Origin: a virus
DNA: 20,223 bases
IMG/VR virus record: IMGVR_UViG_3300027834_000109
Span: 1 to 20,223 of that record
Reading direction: 5' to 3' (one strand)
The position numbers and the translations under genes are program-made. The notes beneath the pieces were generated by a model. That model saw nothing but the letters and a program-made list of their open reading frames with translations, had not been told where the DNA came from and did not search any database. This document shows, piece by piece, positions 36-11,394 of this stretch; the first letter of the stretch is position 1, and each line of letters opens with the position of its first letter.

Positions 36-361
36 TCAATAAATTCACCGGCACCGCTGGCAGCATCCAGCGCCTTGGCCAGCACCTTCTCGCCACCCAC
101 CGCCGGGTTGGTGATCGCCATGGCGTTGGCGTCAGACACCACGTCATCGCCCACGCCCACCGCGCCGCCGGTCTCCACCACCGTGGTACCCATCACATCC
201 AGGCTCAGGTCGTCGCCATCCACGGCAGAGAAGTTAGCTACACCAAAGGCTTCCGCCCCAGCGGTATCCAGCTGGGCACCGTCAAAGCCCACGAAGCGAT
301 GGGCGGCCACCGCACCAGCGGCCACCGCTGTCAGCGTTAGAACAGGAATCTTCTGGCTCAT
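17..361 (-). CDS. DUF2190-type capsid cement/decoration protein
   Basis: This 114-residue protein is rich in Gly, Ala and Val and predicted to be beta-rich. It resembles the DUF2190 family of small capsid decoration proteins, which in Mu-like phages sit between the protease/scaffold and the major head gene. It has no signal peptide or membrane segment and no catalytic motif. The ATG at 361 overlaps the TGA of the protease/scaffold gene in an ATGA, so translation is probably coupled. The position fits: head protease upstream and, by Mu gene order, the major capsid gene beyond the window start. Such proteins stabilise the expanded shell from outside. The family call rests on overall sequence character and synteny; the exact capsid role is inferred. 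Confidence 0.78.
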   Translation of the reverse strand: MSQKIPVLTLTAVAAGAVAAHRFVGFDGAQLDTAGAEAFGVANFSAVDGDDLSLDVMGTTVVETGGAVGVGDDVVSDANAMAITNPAVGGEKVLAKALDAASGAGEFIEVLIVR

Positions 362-849
362 GCCTTGCCACCTCCGCGCTGCACGGCATTCACCGCCGTG
401 ACGTAGTCACACTCGTGCTTCTCTTGGTACGCCAGCGCTTGCGAGTGCAGGCGCGCCTTTTCCGGGTTGACCTGGTAGCCATCCGGGGCGTGGTACTGGC
501 CCGCATCGTCGGCATCGTCGCCGCCTGCGGCACGCTCGCTGTAATCCACTGCCACCGGCAGCTCTTTCAGGAACGTCTCCAGGAAGTCGCGTCCGGTCGT
601 TTTGGTGGCGTCCTTGCCTTCGCCAAACTCCAGCGCGCCCTCGCCATCCTGATTGGCCATAAACGCCACCAGGCCGTCACGGTGCTTGGGCAGTACGCGC
701 CCTTGCTTCACCAGGTCGTCGACCAGGGAGGCGCTCGCCTCGGCACGATACTTCTGCTCGCGCTCAGCAAAGTCGGCTTCCTGCTGTTTAATGCGCGCCT
801 CGCGGGCCTCGGCCTCTTGCTCGCGGCGCTCCAGTTCTTGCTTGTCCAC
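358..849 (-). CDS. Internal-start scaffold protein (Mu gpZ-like), in frame within the protease gene
   Basis: GGAGGTGA (855-862 on the minus strand), an almost ideal Shine-Dalgarno sequence, lies inside the protease gene. After GGAGG, eight bases precede an in-frame GTG at 847-849, codon 211 of the 373-codon gene. Initiation there would give 163 residues: the coiled coil that begins DKQELERREQEAEARE, plus the C-terminal scaffold domain. The site falls exactly at the junction between the Pro/Thr-rich linker and the coiled coil, the natural boundary between protease and scaffold. Mu makes its scaffold Z by internal initiation in gene I, so the interpretation has precedent. That the site is used is inferred. 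Confidence 0.72.
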   Translation of the reverse strand: MDKQELERREQEAEAREARIKQQEADFAEREQKYRAEASASLVDDLVKQGRVLPKHRDGLVAFMANQDGEGALEFGEGKDATKTTGRDFLETFLKELPVAVDYSERAAGGDDADDAGQYHAPDGYQVNPEKARLHSQALAYQEKHECDYVTAVNAVQRGGGKA

Positions 850-1479
850 GTCGGTCACCTCCGGGGTGGTTGGGTGGGGCGGGGTTGGCCGGGGCGTCTC
901 GCTGTAGGCGGACGACTCGGAACGGTCTTCAAGCGCTTCGATTTCCCAATCAGGCAGCACCTTGTCGGCAGCTTCCACGCCACCCTCGGCAATCAGCTTT
1001 TCACGCAGGGCGCGAAACAGGCGCTGCAGGATGCCGCCACGGATCTCGCCAAACTCAAGCTCGACAACGTCGCGCTCAGGCTCGCTAAACTCGATCTGTT
1101 TAAGGCCCTTGATGGCGGGCGGCTGGGCACCCAAAAAGCCCACATGGCGCAAGTAGTAAACGCCGGGCTTAGGGTTGGCGGGGGAGTCGGGGCGGTAGAA
1201 GCTGGCAGACACTTTCTTGAAGCGGCCAGCCGCCACCATTTCGGCAAACTGCGGCTCCACCTGGTCAGGGGTAGCCTCTAGGGTGTCGGCAAACGACAGC
1301 GACTTGACCCAGCCATAGGCGGGGTGGTCGTGGCGCGGATGCCCCACCACGATAGGCGCTTCATGCAACGCCGGATCGTAGGCGGCGGCGCTATCGCGCA
1401 GCTGCTGCTCGGTAAAGCCGATGGTCTCGCCAGACATATCGGTATGCTTGCCCGGCTTGAAAATTTCGATGCGCTGCAT
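358..1479 (-). CDS. Mu gpI-like head maturation protease with fused scaffold
   Basis: This 373-residue protein matches the Mu-like I protein family (peptidase U35 type). The N-terminal half carries the protease: a VVGHP motif with His47, and a KKVSASFY segment with Ser91/Ser93 as nucleophile candidates. A disordered Pro-rich linker (about 195-208) leads to a charged, Glu/Arg-rich coiled coil (about 211-250) and a C-terminal domain typical of scaffold. In Mu, gpI is the protease-scaffold and gpZ is the scaffold alone, made from an internal in-frame start; an internal ribosome site here supports the same arrangement (separate entry). The gene follows a 267-bp non-coding gap that appears to hold a terminator and a late promoter. 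It overlaps the cement gene by ATGA. ATG 1479 has GGGAGG upstream. Confidence 0.92.
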   Translation of the reverse strand: MQRIEIFKPGKHTDMSGETIGFTEQQLRDSAAAYDPALHEAPIVVGHPRHDHPAYGWVKSLSFADTLEATPDQVEPQFAEMVAAGRFKKVSASFYRPDSPANPKPGVYYLRHVGFLGAQPPAIKGLKQIEFSEPERDVVELEFGEIRGGILQRLFRALREKLIAEGGVEAADKVLPDWEIEALEDRSESSAYSETPRPTPPHPTTPEVTDVDKQELERREQEAEAREARIKQQEADFAEREQKYRAEASASLVDDLVKQGRVLPKHRDGLVAFMANQDGEGALEFGEGKDATKTTGRDFLETFLKELPVAVDYSERAAGGDDADDAGQYHAPDGYQVNPEKARLHSQALAYQEKHECDYVTAVNAVQRGGGKA

Positions 1480-1537
1480 AGCGGCCTCCCGTGTTCGTGG
1501 GGGCCAGTATCGGAAGCAAAGGGGGTGTGCGGTAAGC

Positions 1538-1553
1538 CGAAGGGCTTCAGCGG
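1538..1553 (-). repeat. 16-bp element shared with the other late leader (copy 1)
   Basis: The plus-strand sequence CGAAGGGCTTCAGCGG occurs here and again at 9457-9472. Both copies have the same orientation relative to the late genes, in the two largest gaps of the late region. This copy starts 59 bp upstream of the protease ATG. It contains a short GAAG/CTTC dyad. It could be an RNA element in the late leaders or an activator site; the function is unknown. Confidence 0.6.
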
Positions 1554-1680: not shown

Positions 1681-1705
1681 AAAAAAAATCACGAGTAACA
1701 TCGTG
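1681..1705 (-). terminator. Intrinsic terminator after the gpG-like gene
   Basis: Read on the minus strand, CACGA (1701-1705) and TCGTG (1690-1694) form a 5-bp stem around a six-base loop, followed by A and a run of eight T (1681-1688). A second stem (6 bp, 1730-1735 with 1742-1747) lies just upstream at the stop codon of the gpG-like gene. The short stem makes it modest, but the T-tract is strong. It would end the terminase-portal transcript before the next promoter. Confidence 0.65.
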
Positions 1706-1746: not shown

Positions 1747-2265
1747 TTATGCGCTACCCGCACCAGTGGGCATAGCATGCCTTGCCAGCACCTCGTCGAT
1801 CACCTGGCGATCCTCGCTGGAAAGCCCCAGGTAAGGGCGGGCAGGAATCGTGACCTGCTTGACCAGGGCAAAGGCCCCACCGGGCCGACCAATGGCCAGC
1901 GCGCCGCCGCCCTTGGCCTTCACGGTACCGCCCAGCTGATGAATCGCCCCATAGATTTTGTTGGTGCCTTGCTCCAGCACATCCTTGCCCGCCCGGTAGT
2001 GGATCGAACCACGCAGGCCGCTACCGCCGCTCTCGGTCAGGATCTGGTCGTTGCGCTTATTGGCCTTGGTGAAGTCGCTCAGCGGCTCCCAGGGCCTGCC
2101 CTCGGGGTCGGTCTCACTGCGAAAGCGCTCCTCGACAGCACCCTGCAGGTGCTCGCCAATCTCCAGCAGCGCCGGGCGCAGGTTTTCGACGTTGCGCCGC
2201 ATCCGCCCCAGCATGTCGGCCACTTCCTCATCGCGGATCTCGTGGCGTAACGCAATACCTGCCAT
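1747..2265 (-). CDS. Mu gpG-like virion morphogenesis protein
   Basis: This 172-residue protein belongs to the phage virion morphogenesis family (Mu gpG / P2 gpS type). Indicators are an N-terminal helical stretch, the segment RSETDPEGRPWEPLSDFT near residue 50-67, and a C-terminal IPARPYLGLS motif (about 141-150) that is typical of the family. In P2 gpS completes the tail; in Mu gpG acts in head/tail morphogenesis. ATG 2265 sits four bases after the TAA of the minor head gene, with a GGAG sequence upstream. It is the last gene before the terminator at 1681-1705, so it closes one late transcription unit. Length is usual for the family. Confidence 0.88.
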   Translation of the reverse strand: MAGIALRHEIRDEEVADMLGRMRRNVENLRPALLEIGEHLQGAVEERFRSETDPEGRPWEPLSDFTKANKRNDQILTESGGSGLRGSIHYRAGKDVLEQGTNKIYGAIHQLGGTVKAKGGGALAIGRPGGAFALVKQVTIPARPYLGLSSEDRQVIDEVLARHAMPTGAGSA

Positions 2266-7821: not shown

Positions 7822-8195
7822 TGCAGTGCCTCCAGCGCATCACGCAGCACCGGCGCCACCGGGCCGTTATCGCTTTCAGGGGCCTGCTCGATGCGGCGCT
7901 GGCGATCTCGGTACCGGTCGCCGCTGTCAGCCAGCTCGGCCTGCAACTCACGTACGGCACGCTCGGCGTGTGCCTGCTCGGCAATGGCGGTGGCCAGGTC
8001 GTCGCGGTAGCGATCGGCTCGCGCCTGCCAGGCGTCGAGCCCCTTGCGTAGCACTTCGGCATCCGCGCGCGTCTCGCTCAGCGCAGACTCCAGCCGGGCA
8101 GTCTCGGACTGGTGCCACAGCCAGCCGCCGCCCACCACGGCCACCACCGCACCGACAGCCCACACCTTGGCGGGAACAAAGCGCAACAGCTTCAT
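7818..8195 (-). CDS. Rz-like inner-membrane spanin
   Basis: This protein has an N-terminal membrane segment (about residue 8-26, VWAVGAVVAVVGGGWLW). A long periplasmic coiled coil rich in Glu, Arg and Ala follows (SETARLESALSETRADAEVL onward), the usual architecture of the i-spanin Rz. I start it at ATG 8195 (125 residues) because this forms an ATGA overlap with the transglycosylase stop, as at other junctions here; an ATG two codons earlier (8201) is equally possible. It should span the periplasm with the downstream lipoprotein and fuse the membranes in the final lysis step. Confidence 0.82.
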   Translation of the reverse strand: MKLLRFVPAKVWAVGAVVAVVGGGWLWHQSETARLESALSETRADAEVLRKGLDAWQARADRYRDDLATAIAEQAHAERAVRELQAELADSGDRYRDRQRRIEQAPESDNGPVAPVLRDALEALQ

Positions 8196-8878
8196 GAGCA
8201 TGGCTCACCCCCTTGCCAGCCCGCCCGCGCATAGCGGGGCGTTAGCGTCAGCAGGATATGGCGCACGTAGTGGCGGTTCTCGCGCTTCGCCCAGCTAGCG
8301 CGGTTCGTGTAGCGCTCCACATGACCAAACCAGCGGGCGGCATCATCGCCCGCCGCCGTGGCCAAACGCCTGTCGCGGTTAACCCAGCCCAGCCCGCCGT
8401 TGTAGGCGCTCATGGCAAACGCCCAGTGCGCGCACTGGTCGGCGGTACCGCTTAGGCGCTGCCAGTGCCAGCGGTTGTAGCGGGCCTGGGCGCGCATGGC
8501 CCAGGTGGGCGAATAGGGGGCCGCTTGGCCCAGGTCGGGGTAAATCTCGGCAATCCACGCACTGGTGGATGGCATGAACTGGGAAAGCCCTTGCGCACCC
8601 ACCGGGCTATCGACATTGGCCCGCCAGGCACTCTCCTGGTGGATCTGTGCAGCGTGCAGCGCTACCGGCGCGGGCAGGCCAAACTCTTGCTGCACAATCC
8701 GGGTCAGTTCGCGCTGATACTGGGCCGCCTGCCCCGGAATACCTTGGGCCTGGGCCGCTTCGCCCAGCATCCAGCCCAGCAGCCACAACGCCAGCCCGGC
8801 GCGCAACAGGCCGCTCATGCGGCGCTGAACGCGGAAGTAGGTACGGTGATAGTACGAAAGACGGTAAGAACGGCTCAT
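8192..8878 (-). CDS. SLT-family lytic transglycosylase (phage endolysin)
   Basis: This 228-residue protein has a C-terminal soluble lytic transglycosylase domain. Catalytic Glu82 lies in AQIHQESAWR, followed by GAQGLSQFMPSTSAWIA, and the family's AYNGG signature appears as AMSAYNGGLGWV near residue 156-167. The reaction is non-hydrolytic cleavage of the MurNAc-GlcNAc bond with anhydromuropeptide formation. A basic N-terminus (1-20) and hydrophobic stretch (22-44) ending AQAQG form a signal peptide or signal-anchor. Export may therefore use Sec and the holin would trigger timing. Met21 could be the real start, but ATG 8878 overlaps the preceding gene by ATGA. It lies in a lysis cassette with holin and spanins. 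Confidence 0.9.
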   Translation of the reverse strand: MSRSYRLSYYHRTYFRVQRRMSGLLRAGLALWLLGWMLGEAAQAQGIPGQAAQYQRELTRIVQQEFGLPAPVALHAAQIHQESAWRANVDSPVGAQGLSQFMPSTSAWIAEIYPDLGQAAPYSPTWAMRAQARYNRWHWQRLSGTADQCAHWAFAMSAYNGGLGWVNRDRRLATAAGDDAARWFGHVERYTNRASWAKRENRHYVRHILLTLTPRYARAGWQGGEPCS

Positions 8879-9046: not shown

Positions 9047-9382
9047 CTAGACCCCCAGGCCCAGCGCCAGAATGGCCGCCGCCATCACGCCCACGCGCCG
9101 CAGTGAGGCAAGGCCCGCCTGTTGACGCATATGGCGCGCACCGTTACGCAACCCCTGGGCATCCAGGCGGCTAGCAAGGTGGTAGAAGTCGTGGGGGCGG
9201 GCGTAGTGAAAGATCGTGCGGTCAACCCAATAACCCAGGTAGGCACCCAGGCACAGCTTGGAAAGCGACCACACCAGCACGCCCAGCTGGTAGGGGGCAA
9301 AATGGCCCACCGCCGCCGTGGCGACTAACGCCAACAGCAGCCAGGGAAAGGCGCGGAATTTATCGAGTAGCGTGGCAATCAT
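9047..9382 (-). CDS. Putative holin of Mu-like phages
   Basis: This 111-residue protein has hydrophobic segments at about 11-27 (FPWLLLALVATAAVGHF), 32-51 (GVLVWSLSKLCLGAYLGYWV) and 96-110 (VGVMAAAILALGLGV). A loop contains the DRTIFHYARPHDF motif that recurs in putative holins of Mu-like Pseudomonas phages. Holins form inner-membrane lesions that set lysis time. It is the first gene after the Mor-like activator gene and the 173-bp leader, that is, the promoter-proximal late gene, as expected for a P_lys-type unit. ATG 9382; the sequence upstream has CTGGAG. Confidence 0.78.
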   Translation of the reverse strand: MIATLLDKFRAFPWLLLALVATAAVGHFAPYQLGVLVWSLSKLCLGAYLGYWVDRTIFHYARPHDFYHLASRLDAQGLRNGARHMRQQAGLASLRRVGVMAAAILALGLGV

Positions 9383-9555
9383 GGCCGTCTCCAGTCGGGT
9401 CTCGGTAGTAATGGCTTGAGACTCGACGGTAACGGCCAGGGGGCGATACAGGCAGGCGAAGGGCTTCAGCGGTTAACGCCAGGGCGGCGTATCAGGCAGG
9501 AGGGTGCAGGTTAGCGCGCCCAGCGGGCGCGGTCTACTAGCAGTGACAACAAGGG
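9383..9555 (-). promoter_or_regulatory. Lysis/late leader region (Mu P_lys position)
   Basis: These 173 non-coding bases separate the activator gene from the holin, where an activator-dependent late promoter is expected by analogy to Mu P_lys. I see no convincing -35/-10 pair; TAGTAG (minus, 9534-9539) is the best weak -10 candidate. The region has a 7-bp GC hairpin with a three-base loop (9515-9531) just after the activator gene and one copy of the 16-bp element shared with the other late leader. A GGTTAACGCCAGGG segment (plus, 9471-9484) resembles GGTTACAGCAGGGA at 9554-9567. Confidence 0.45.
9457..9472 (-). repeat. 16-bp element shared with the other late leader (copy 2)
   Basis: The sequence is identical to 1538-1553 (plus-strand CGAAGGGCTTCAGCGG). 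It lies 75 bp upstream of the holin start, against 59 bp upstream of the protease start for the other copy. Finding the same 16-mer only in these two leaders is unlikely by chance in 20 kb. Confidence 0.6.
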
Positions 9556-9948
9556 TTACAGCAGGGAGTATTGGTCGCTGTTCGCGGCATCGTCCCGCGA
9601 TAGGATGGTATAGATCTGGCGCTCGGTCAGGCGGTAGCGCAACGCCAGCACCGCTGGGGCGTCGCCCTGGTCGCGCTCGTGGCGGATCTGGCGGTTACGC
9701 ACCCGGCGCAACGCATCCGCGCAGCGCGGCACCACCAGCTCCTCCATGGCAAACGCCGCTGACAAAGCAGCGGCGGCATCACGGCCCAGCCATTCGATCA
9801 GGCGGTGCTCATCACCCAGGCGCTCCGGCACGTACACGCGCACGCCGCCAGCGCTCTCCACCAGGGCCAACGTGGCCGCCAGGCCAATCACCTCTGCCAC
9901 ATCGACCAGCGACTGGGGCAGCTCCTCAATCTCCCTCACATCTAGCAT
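9556..9948 (-). CDS. Mor/C-family transcription activator
   Basis: This 130-residue protein matches the Mor transcription activator family. The N-terminal dimerisation domain is about 1-75 (ELPQSLVDVAEVIGLAATLALVESAGG, split helices and a strand YVPERL). The C-terminal helix-turn-helix is about 92-125, with the typical RNRQIRHERDQG then ALRYRLTERQIYTILSR. In Mu, Mor activates the middle promoter and its paralogue C activates the late promoters. Only one family member is visible here, at the end of the early operon and directly before the late leader, so it may do both jobs. ATG 9948 overlaps the upstream TGA (TGATG). Confidence 0.9.
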   Translation of the reverse strand: MLDVREIEELPQSLVDVAEVIGLAATLALVESAGGVRVYVPERLGDEHRLIEWLGRDAAAALSAAFAMEELVVPRCADALRRVRNRQIRHERDQGDAPAVLALRYRLTERQIYTILSRDDAANSDQYSLL

Positions 9949-10331: not shown

Positions 10332-10788
10332 GATTGACGCCCCCGCTCCATGGCTTGCAGCGCCCGCATGACGCCCTTGGCCGGGCGTGACGGCGCGGCC
10401 TGCTCAGGCGTGGCGACCGACTCACCACGCCCACGCCGCGTGCGCCCAACGACTCCACCACCCGCTTCAGATAGTTGTGGTTGCGTAGCGGGCGGGTGTC
10501 TTCGCCGCTGTCACGCTTGGCGCGGATCGCCTCGACGGTTTCCGACAGCGCCGCGCCCACCAGCCCCATGTCGCCCGCCAAGGCCAGCGCCTCACGCGCC
10601 AGGCGCAACTGACGCTCATAGGCGGTCGCCCGCGTCTTGCCCCGGAACAGACCCACATACGCCACCAGCGGTCGCGACGTATCGCGGGGCAGGTCAGCCA
10701 GCAGGGCCATCATCTCGCGCAGCGCCTCATCCTCATTGATATGCTCAAGACCAAAGGTGGAATGACAGCAAGGGCAGCGAATATCCAT
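10303..10788 (-). CDS. Zinc-ribbon phage protein with a probable 3' frameshift
   Basis: The open frame gives 161 residues. It starts with a Cys cluster MDIRCPCCHSTFGLEH, as in a zinc ribbon, followed by helical sequence (ALREMMALLADLP, YVGLFRGKTRATAYERQLRLA) to about residue 110 (NHNYLKRVVESLG). The remaining tail is Arg/Ser/Pro-rich and runs 29 bases into the next gene. In the -1 frame the same DNA reads ESVATPEQAAPSRPAKGVM then RALQAMERGRQS and stops with TGA at 10328-10330, making the ATGA overlap common in this operon. A one-base deletion in the interval of about 10420-10462 is therefore likely (mutation or sequencing error). The family is not identified. Confidence 0.7.
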   Translation of the reverse strand: MDIRCPCCHSTFGLEHINEDEALREMMALLADLPRDTSRPLVAYVGLFRGKTRATAYERQLRLAREALALAGDMGLVGAALSETVEAIRAKRDSGEDTRPLRNHNYLKRVVESLGARGVGVVSRSPRLSRPRRHARPRASCGRCKPWSGGVNHESARPMVP

Positions 10789-10796
10789 CGTTTCTC

Positions 10797-10816
10797 CAGG
10801 GGTTACACAGGGGTTA
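10797..10816. repeat. Two 9-bp direct repeats with 11-bp period
   Basis: CAGGGGTTA occurs at 10797-10805 and 10808-10816 in the 36-bp gap after gemA. The 11-bp period equals that of the CTGTTTAAA pair at 1644-1663, and the two regions resemble each other (15 of 20 aligned bases when one is reversed). This is a possible activator-binding site; the repeat also covers the ribosome-site region of the downstream gene. Confidence 0.4.
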
Positions 10817-10824
10817 AAAGGCGC

Positions 10825-11394
10825 TTAACAGCTCGGGTCGAAGGTCTGCACGTAGCGAGCAGGCTCCGGCAGCACATCGGCCATCTTTTTCAACATGGCC
10901 AGGTTGCGCTCCCAGTGGGCGGGCAGCCGGTATCGCTGGGCCAGCGCGTCGCGATCCTGCCCCAGGCTCTCCAGGCATTCGTCAACGTAGGCCAGCAGGC
11001 TCCGCTTTTGGCGCTCCACGTCCAGCGCGGCAATCACGCCCCGGAACTGGGCCTCGGTGCGCAGCCAGTCGATGCGATCGATACCGGTCTGGCGCTTCGC
11101 AATCGCCCCGGCGTACTCCCAGGAAAGCGCCATCTCAGCCAGCAGCGCCTCGATCTTGGCCAACTGCTCGTGCTTGTTGAACGTGTTGGGCACACGCCCG
11201 GCCCGCTTGGGCGCTTTGGGCTGCCACCCCAAGCGGCGGAACTCGTGCAGCACGCCGCCCACGGTGCACTCGGTCAGCTCCTTGGCGCTGCTCACGCCAG
11301 CGGTGCGGGCCAAAATGGCCCGGTAGTCGTCATCGCTCAGCCCCAACTGCGCCTTGGCCACATGGATCTGGGCTAACTTGCGCTTGCTGATCAT
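10825..11394 (-). CDS. gemA: GemA-like regulatory protein (DUF1018)
   Basis: This 189-residue protein belongs to the DUF1018/GemA family. The N-terminal signature ISKRKLAQIHVAKAQLGLSD with DDYRAILARTAGVSSAKELT is diagnostic, and VLHEFRRLGWQPK follows near residue 50-62. The C-terminal half is helical. In Mu, GemA (gp16) alters host gene expression and DNA supercoiling-related functions; its mechanism is not settled. The frame continues upstream to 11445, but ATG 11394 forms an ATGA overlap with the upstream gene and starts exactly at the conserved MISKRK, so I chose it. It lies in the early block, two genes before the activator. Confidence 0.88.
   Translation of the reverse strand: MISKRKLAQIHVAKAQLGLSDDDYRAILARTAGVSSAKELTECTVGGVLHEFRRLGWQPKAPKRAGRVPNTFNKHEQLAKIEALLAEMALSWEYAGAIAKRQTGIDRIDWLRTEAQFRGVIAALDVERQKRSLLAYVDECLESLGQDRDALAQRYRLPAHWERNLAMLKKMADVLPEPARYVQTFDPSC

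Follow-up and report, generated by a model that had tools for sequence, protein, structure and literature searches.

The two late leaders of the Mu-like phage analyzed here very probably each contain a late promoter of the Mu type, in which a 16-bp dyad would serve as operator of the Mor/C-family late transcription activator encoded by the same phage. The virus record comprises 20,223 bp (in the following the window, i.e. the whole stretch of DNA that was analyzed), and its late genes are located on the minus strand. One dyad, GCTGAAGCCCTTCGGC (1536..1551, minus strand, 6 of 7 arm pairs), is located upstream of a Mu I-like head maturation protease gene (358..1479, minus strand; phrog_976, E 2e-118), the first gene of the unit we call PI after its counterpart in Mu, and is conserved before the protease gene of relatives. 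The other, GCTGAAGCCCTTCGCC (9455..9470, minus strand, 5 of 7 arm pairs), precedes the holin gene (9047..9382, minus strand; PF13272, phrog_1528), with which the Plys unit begins, and in relatives is kept downstream of Mor. The activator gene itself is found at 9556..9948 on the minus strand (PF08765, E 6.6e-14; phrog_836, E 7.1e-37), and its product of 130 aa is predicted to bind both operators. Judged from sequence, these elements are best read as Mor/C-type operators, a known kind, with a half-site that is new and a regulon that has one activator.

The first-pass annotation had pointed to an identical 16-mer with a small dyad in both leaders. This duplicate is genuine: CGAAGGGCTTCAGCGG is present on the plus strand at 1538-1553 and 9457-9472 (CCGCTGAAGCCCTTCG on the coding, minus strand), and the distances of 59 and 75 bp to the start codons at 1479 and 9382 were given correctly, both genes being encoded on the minus strand. 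The dyad is real as well, but the symmetric elements (1536-1551 and 9455-9470) are offset by 2 bp from the 16-mer, which is exactly the part common to two imperfect 16-bp dyads, GCTGAAGCCCTTCGGC read from 1551 to 1536 and GCTGAAGCCCTTCGCC read from 9470 to 9455. Both can be divided into 5-bp arms and a G/C-rich 6-bp center (GCTGA-AGCCCT-TCGGC for PI, GCTGA-AGCCCT-TCGCC for Plys). With this division the arms are imperfect in the window (4 of 5 pairs for PI, 3 of 5 for Plys) and perfect in relatives such as L141, and the form seen in relatives is the near-perfect palindrome GCTGAAGNNCTTCAGC. No further copy of the 16-mer was detected in the window, even allowing up to three mismatches; in shuffled sequence 0.49 matches are expected, and two or more matches occurred in 8 of 100 shuffles. 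Between the leaders, 173 and 267 bp in length, the longest common word has 16 letters when the same strands are compared and 6 when opposite strands are compared; among 20,000 pairs of Markov-1 leaders of equal lengths, a common word of 16 was reached once and one of 12 by 199 pairs. As the whole window contains five repeated exact 16-mers, four of them besides the leader word, the repeat alone is modest evidence, and it is its position and conservation that make it strong.

Both dyads are followed by a weak -10-like hexamer, GATACT (1506..1511, minus strand) 24 bp past the PI dyad and TACCGT (9426..9431, minus strand) 23 bp past the Plys dyad, which agree with TATAAT at four and three of six positions, respectively; for PI, the spacing is 23 bp in most close relatives. 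A consensus scan of both leaders detected neither a sigma-70 promoter pair nor a recognizable -35 hexamer. With the +1 positions placed by the geometry of Mu Pm, transcription would start at about 1499-1500 for PI and about 9419 for Plys, and the predicted leaders of about 20 nt and 37 nt, respectively, would contain the ribosome-binding sites that can be read from the sequence before the ATGs, GGGAGG (1485..1490, minus strand) for the protease gene and GGAG (9389..9392, minus strand) for the holin gene. The last gene before the PI leader encodes a Mu G-like virion morphogenesis protein (1747..2265, minus strand; PF05069, phrog_26), and in the interval between this gene and the PI operator a terminator-like hairpin followed by a T-run (1690..1705, minus strand) probably separates the two late units. 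A transglycosylase endolysin (8192-8878), a cement protein (17-361) and a Mu F-like protein are also encoded in the window. At its very end (positions 1-35), the contig contains a near-perfect inverted repeat that surrounds the stop codon of this cement gene; the repeat is probably a contig-end fold-back because the related loci L018, L006, L080 and L004 continue past this point without the repeat.

The spacing between dyad and hexamer is a general feature of the relatives. A rule demanding at least 11 of 14 matches to GCTGAAGNNCTTCAGC and a hexamer at 22-24 bp was applied to 30 records (517,382 bp, some of the records being near-identical) and yielded 54 late-strand matches against 5 on the opposite strand, shuffled sequences giving 0.5 for each strand; five of the 54 are one and the same match recurring within the coding sequence of G. 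This operator-like match, located in the window at 2068-2083 (minus strand) with GATCCT at 23 bp and repeated in L018, L128, L019 and L139, is probably a consequence of coding conservation. When only late-strand dyads with at least 12 of 14 matches are considered (n=45), the hexamer is found at 23 bp in 27 and at 24 bp in 12 cases (39 of 45); any other spacing accounts for at most 5 of these dyads, and a hexamer at 23-24 bp is present in 2 of 45 opposite-strand cases.

According to the first-pass annotation, absence from the leaders of related phages would have spoken against a regulatory element, but in these leaders it is present. Among 96 loci, the 16-mer is present with up to two mismatches in both leaders of L004, L006, L018 and L080 and in one leader of L003, L005, L007, L019, L020 and L021, these being mostly fragments. 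Further matches with two mismatches in L008 (4767), L009, L067 and L094 were off-position and were therefore rejected as background. Variant letters agree within a phage: GAAGTCC is found in both copies of L004, and likewise in L018. In an alignment of PI leaders, GATACTGG is present in 8 of 8 sequences at constant distance, and the aligned Plys leaders share a block containing TACCGT or TAACGT. The row of L018, the Chromohalobacter phage YPCBV-1, represents the wrong stretch in the latter alignment, as this record apparently contains the holin start twice; its Plys operator is located at position 10513. The duplicated holin start (about 10605-10860), with N nearby and with overlapping genes annotated as 'membrane protein' and 'holin', is probably an assembly join.

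A scan with the activator alignment extended the comparison to 40 loci. In distant relatives (about 42-55% identity), a dyad near GCTGAAGNNCTTCAGC follows directly downstream of the activator gene and is perfect in L141. For 11 loci with a Mor-clade protein, a protease was found as well (tblastn); ten of them have operator and hexamer in both leaders, the exception being L159. The ORF adjoining the protease-side operator copies of L141, L007, L147, L148, L144 and L146 is a head maturation protease in 6 of 6 cases, assigned to a different PHROG (phrog_328) than that of the window. Within 420 bp after Mor, a site with at least 11 of 14 matches is present in 23 of 38 Mor-bearing entries, a score that is not rare, being reached in up to 0.2 of the other stretches of a locus. 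No operator was identified in L142, L150, L155, L158, L163 and L095. A degenerate operator pattern searched in all viral contigs gave, among the matches listed, mostly single and scattered ones, and we do not rely on it here. Repeated dyads were also searched blindly, with almost equal counts for real and reversed sequences (1516 and 1522), a control in which reversal preserves dyads and matches. As far as they are covered by this operator and a simple rule, the late promoters of many Mu-like phages can be found in raw sequence, and genes annotated as 'late transcriptional activator' can be linked to their target promoters.

The arrangement closely follows that of phage Mu (AF083977), in which Plys, a promoter activated by C, is located before the lysis gene, and PI between G and the protease gene I; the window leaders, one separating Mor from holin and the other the G-like gene from the protease gene, occupy the equivalent places. 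The Mu record and the window also share a predicted terminator in the interval from G to PI. All four annotated C-dependent promoters of Mu (Plys, PI, PP and Pmom) show the same 16 bp + 23 bp + hexamer layout, with the hexamers TAGACT, CAAACT, TATCCT and TAAGAT exactly 23 bp past the 16-mer when the latter is placed by its ATAA. The activators of Mu and of the window belong to the same Pfam family, but Mu encodes two of them (Mor and C), whereas the window encodes one. The half-sites differ as well, CTGA..TCAG in the window and TTAT..ATAA in Mu, so that the window dyads do not fit the TTAT-N6-ATAA pattern of the Mu C operator. The window element appears to work like the Mu C operator, but its operator sequence is not the same. 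A copy at PP, which is present in Mu, was not found in the closest named phage record, YPCBV-1.

The -10 hexamer of a promoter is conventionally placed at -12. According to two studies on the Mu middle promoter Pm (PMC4390567, PMC4287176), the Mor dimer binds a 16-bp site in which 5-bp inverted repeats enclose a G/C-rich hexanucleotide center, and replaces the -35 element; the dyad is located at -51 to -36 (PMC4287176). With the dyad at these positions and the hexamer at -12, the spacing on Pm would also be 23 bp, and as far as these accounts go Pm resembles the window promoters in its 16-bp element, its 5-bp inverted repeats, its G/C-rich 6-bp center and the lack of a -35 hexamer. In contrast to Pm, which drives the operon bearing C, no such operator is found ahead of the sole activator gene of the window, which would address the late genes directly.

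Among named phages, YPCBV-1 (OP380511), whose activator is 87% identical to that of the window, is most similar: both of its leaders contain GCTGAAGTCCTTCGCC, with the hexamers TACCGT and GATACT at 23 bp, and the dyad center differs from that of the window in one letter, alike in both copies; the operators are unannotated in the record. The Alteromonadaceae phage B23 (L285, KY939598) shows CCTGAAGGGCTTCAGG on the lysis side and CCTGAACTCCTTCAGG on the protease side, and the Pseudomonas phage MP22 (L286, DQ873690), a Casadabanvirus, shows GTTGAAGTCAATCATC and GTTGAACCCCTTCCCG, respectively, the MP22 operators having been picked by eye. Unlike the window, B23 and MP22 have predicted leaderless starts. 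For D3112-like phages, the accessible part of PMC4378225 gives promoters predicted with general tools and names no Mor operator, and in the open-access literature we found no description of the present operator or of leaderless late mRNAs in Mu-like phages.

A single Mor/C protein is encoded in the window and likewise in each of eight other relatives checked; the two activator matches in each of G046 and G047 are pieces of one frame and were counted as one. The activator profile matches Mu C in the PDB structures 9l0x and 9vw8. Across 30 phages, the distance between operators correlates with the distance between activator helices (r 0.64; 0 of 5,000 permutations), and the types of helix go along with types of half-site: TERQ-type helices are paired with TGAA, TERAIW with CCGAAC, TERSIW with CTGACG, SLRQIR with GTGCAG, and SEMRI/TEMRV with AAA-type half-sites, where the operators with new half-sites were chosen for their position and their symmetry, in some cases by eye. 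Since the rest of the activator correlates with operator distance equally well (r 0.67; partial correlation for the helix 0.37, 21 of 5,000 permutations), the covariation partly reflects common descent. These approximately 30 natural activator-operator pairs might be useful for studying how the Mor/C helix reads DNA. In the Thauera-type and related phages L103, L104, L106, L115 and L095, the activator gene directly precedes the protease gene and not the lysis unit.

The first-pass annotation had left open whether the 16-mer is an activator site, a processing site or a leader RNA structure. The conserved dyad geometry, the fixed spacing of 23-24 bp, the match to the geometry of Mu and the covariation strongly support a site of the Mor-like protein, and activation of the two promoters would proceed as follows. 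The activator gene, located at the end of the run of early-side genes, would be expressed together with this run; a dimer of its product would bind the 16-bp dyad about 36-51 bp upstream of the transcription start, where it would substitute for the missing -35 element. Aided in this way, the sigma-70 RNA polymerase of the host could initiate from the weak hexamers GATACT and TACCGT, and the lysis and head units would be switched on simultaneously. If the dyad were instead transcribed, it could act as a hairpin in both late mRNAs, controlling ribosome binding or serving as a processing site. There is indeed a dyad in each of the two leaders, and the 77-nt PI leader (z -1.61) and the 93-nt Plys leader (z -2.44) fold slightly better than shuffled sequences. 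However, a hairpin that lies downstream of the dyad contributes most of the folding energy of the Plys leader; on its own, the dyad stretch folds poorly, with 169 of 200 shuffles doing at least equally well, and a symmetric center of 2 nt makes a poor hairpin. The distance of the dyad to the -10-like hexamer is constant at 23-24 bp, and in many relatives only 35-36 nt separate the dyad from the first ATG, so that the dyad would be untranscribed if the hexamer is used. Rather than a stable, conserved hairpin inside the transcript, we found a dyad upstream of the predicted +1, in the Plys copy an unstable one, and because of this upstream position both a leader RNA structure and a processing site are disfavored; we regard such a role as highly unlikely.

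Slightly less probable still is that a host factor, i.e. a nucleoid protein or a host regulator, occupies the dyads in place of the phage activator. Dyads of this size fit many dimeric regulators, but the site is found in phages of Billgrantia, Chromohalobacter, Alteromonadaceae, Pseudomonas, Thauera and relatives, and it varies along with the phage activator. Nor does the element appear to be a common repeat of the host, which according to the first-pass annotation would have spoken against a phage element: in the one host-bearing genome searched, the 4.6-Mb genome that contains the Billgrantia prophage, a degenerate form of the dyad is rare, with three matches, two of them in the prophage. 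The least probable explanation, close to negligible, is a chance repeat or a recent duplication of a leader fragment. The four other repeated 16-mers in the window would be in line with it, but the sequences flanking the two copies differ, and relatives keep both copies with variant letters matched within the phage, as described above for L004 and L018; conservation of the element in both leaders of relatives leads us to reject chance. An operator of the Mor/C-family activator thus remains by far the preferred reading of the two dyads.

The position of the operators also bears on how the late genes of relatives are translated. Many relatives contain a cassette consisting of the 16-bp dyad, 23-24 bp, the hexamer, 6-7 nt and an ATG, and as an offset of 35 nt past the dyad corresponds to +1 in the geometry of Mu Pm, their late mRNAs are predicted to begin on the AUG or one base earlier. 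The first ATG is located 35 or 36 nt past the dyad in 23 of 78 distinct dyad, hexamer and ORF arrangements on the late strand, at least four of which (L086, L131 at 3532, L159 at 2894, and L163) look spurious, and any other distance between dyad and ATG occurs in at most 3 of the 78. On the opposite strand, 4 of 44 arrangements show a distance of 35-36 nt, and three of these are the same promoters in reversely oriented loci. An ATG 6-7 nt past the hexamer was seen at one or both late promoters of L130-L135, L139, L008, L143, L144, L147-L149, L007, L285 and others, and also in MP22. The holins of L130, B23, L008 and L139 begin at such an ATG, and their first residues align (by eye) with the start of the window holin. 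For L141, the true holin start may be internal, as the holin profile begins at residue 58 of the ORF. The clade of the window has the same operator as these leaderless relatives, yet has predicted leaders with ribosome-binding sites; with the operator in common, this contrast suggests a switch in translation mode. On balance, we consider it somewhat favored that a rigid cassette of dyad, hexamer and ATG gives rise to leaderless late head and lysis mRNAs, and that, for homologous genes of a single phage family, the mode of translation has switched. If true, this would be a clear example of leaderless late mRNAs of phages in Proteobacteria, and one that can be tested easily.

A third copy of the operator before a tail-side unit is present in some relatives. 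In the YPCBV-1 record (36 kb) there is no tail-side operator, and only the two leader copies and the match inside the G coding sequence were found; tail-side copies were detected in B23 (28421), in L040, L042 and L044, and in L046, L054 and L056. Among the tested ORFs on this side, the one of L040 has no PHROG match and the one of L046 matches a PHROG of unknown function, so that the designation as tail-side rests on position. The third operator of B23 (28421-28436) is located in a gap before a tail gene, a place resembling that of PP in Mu, and is followed after 24 bp by the hexamer CACCAT. YPCBV-1 has annotated genes of a diversity-generating retroelement, Avd and a reverse transcriptase, at its right end (34205-35938).
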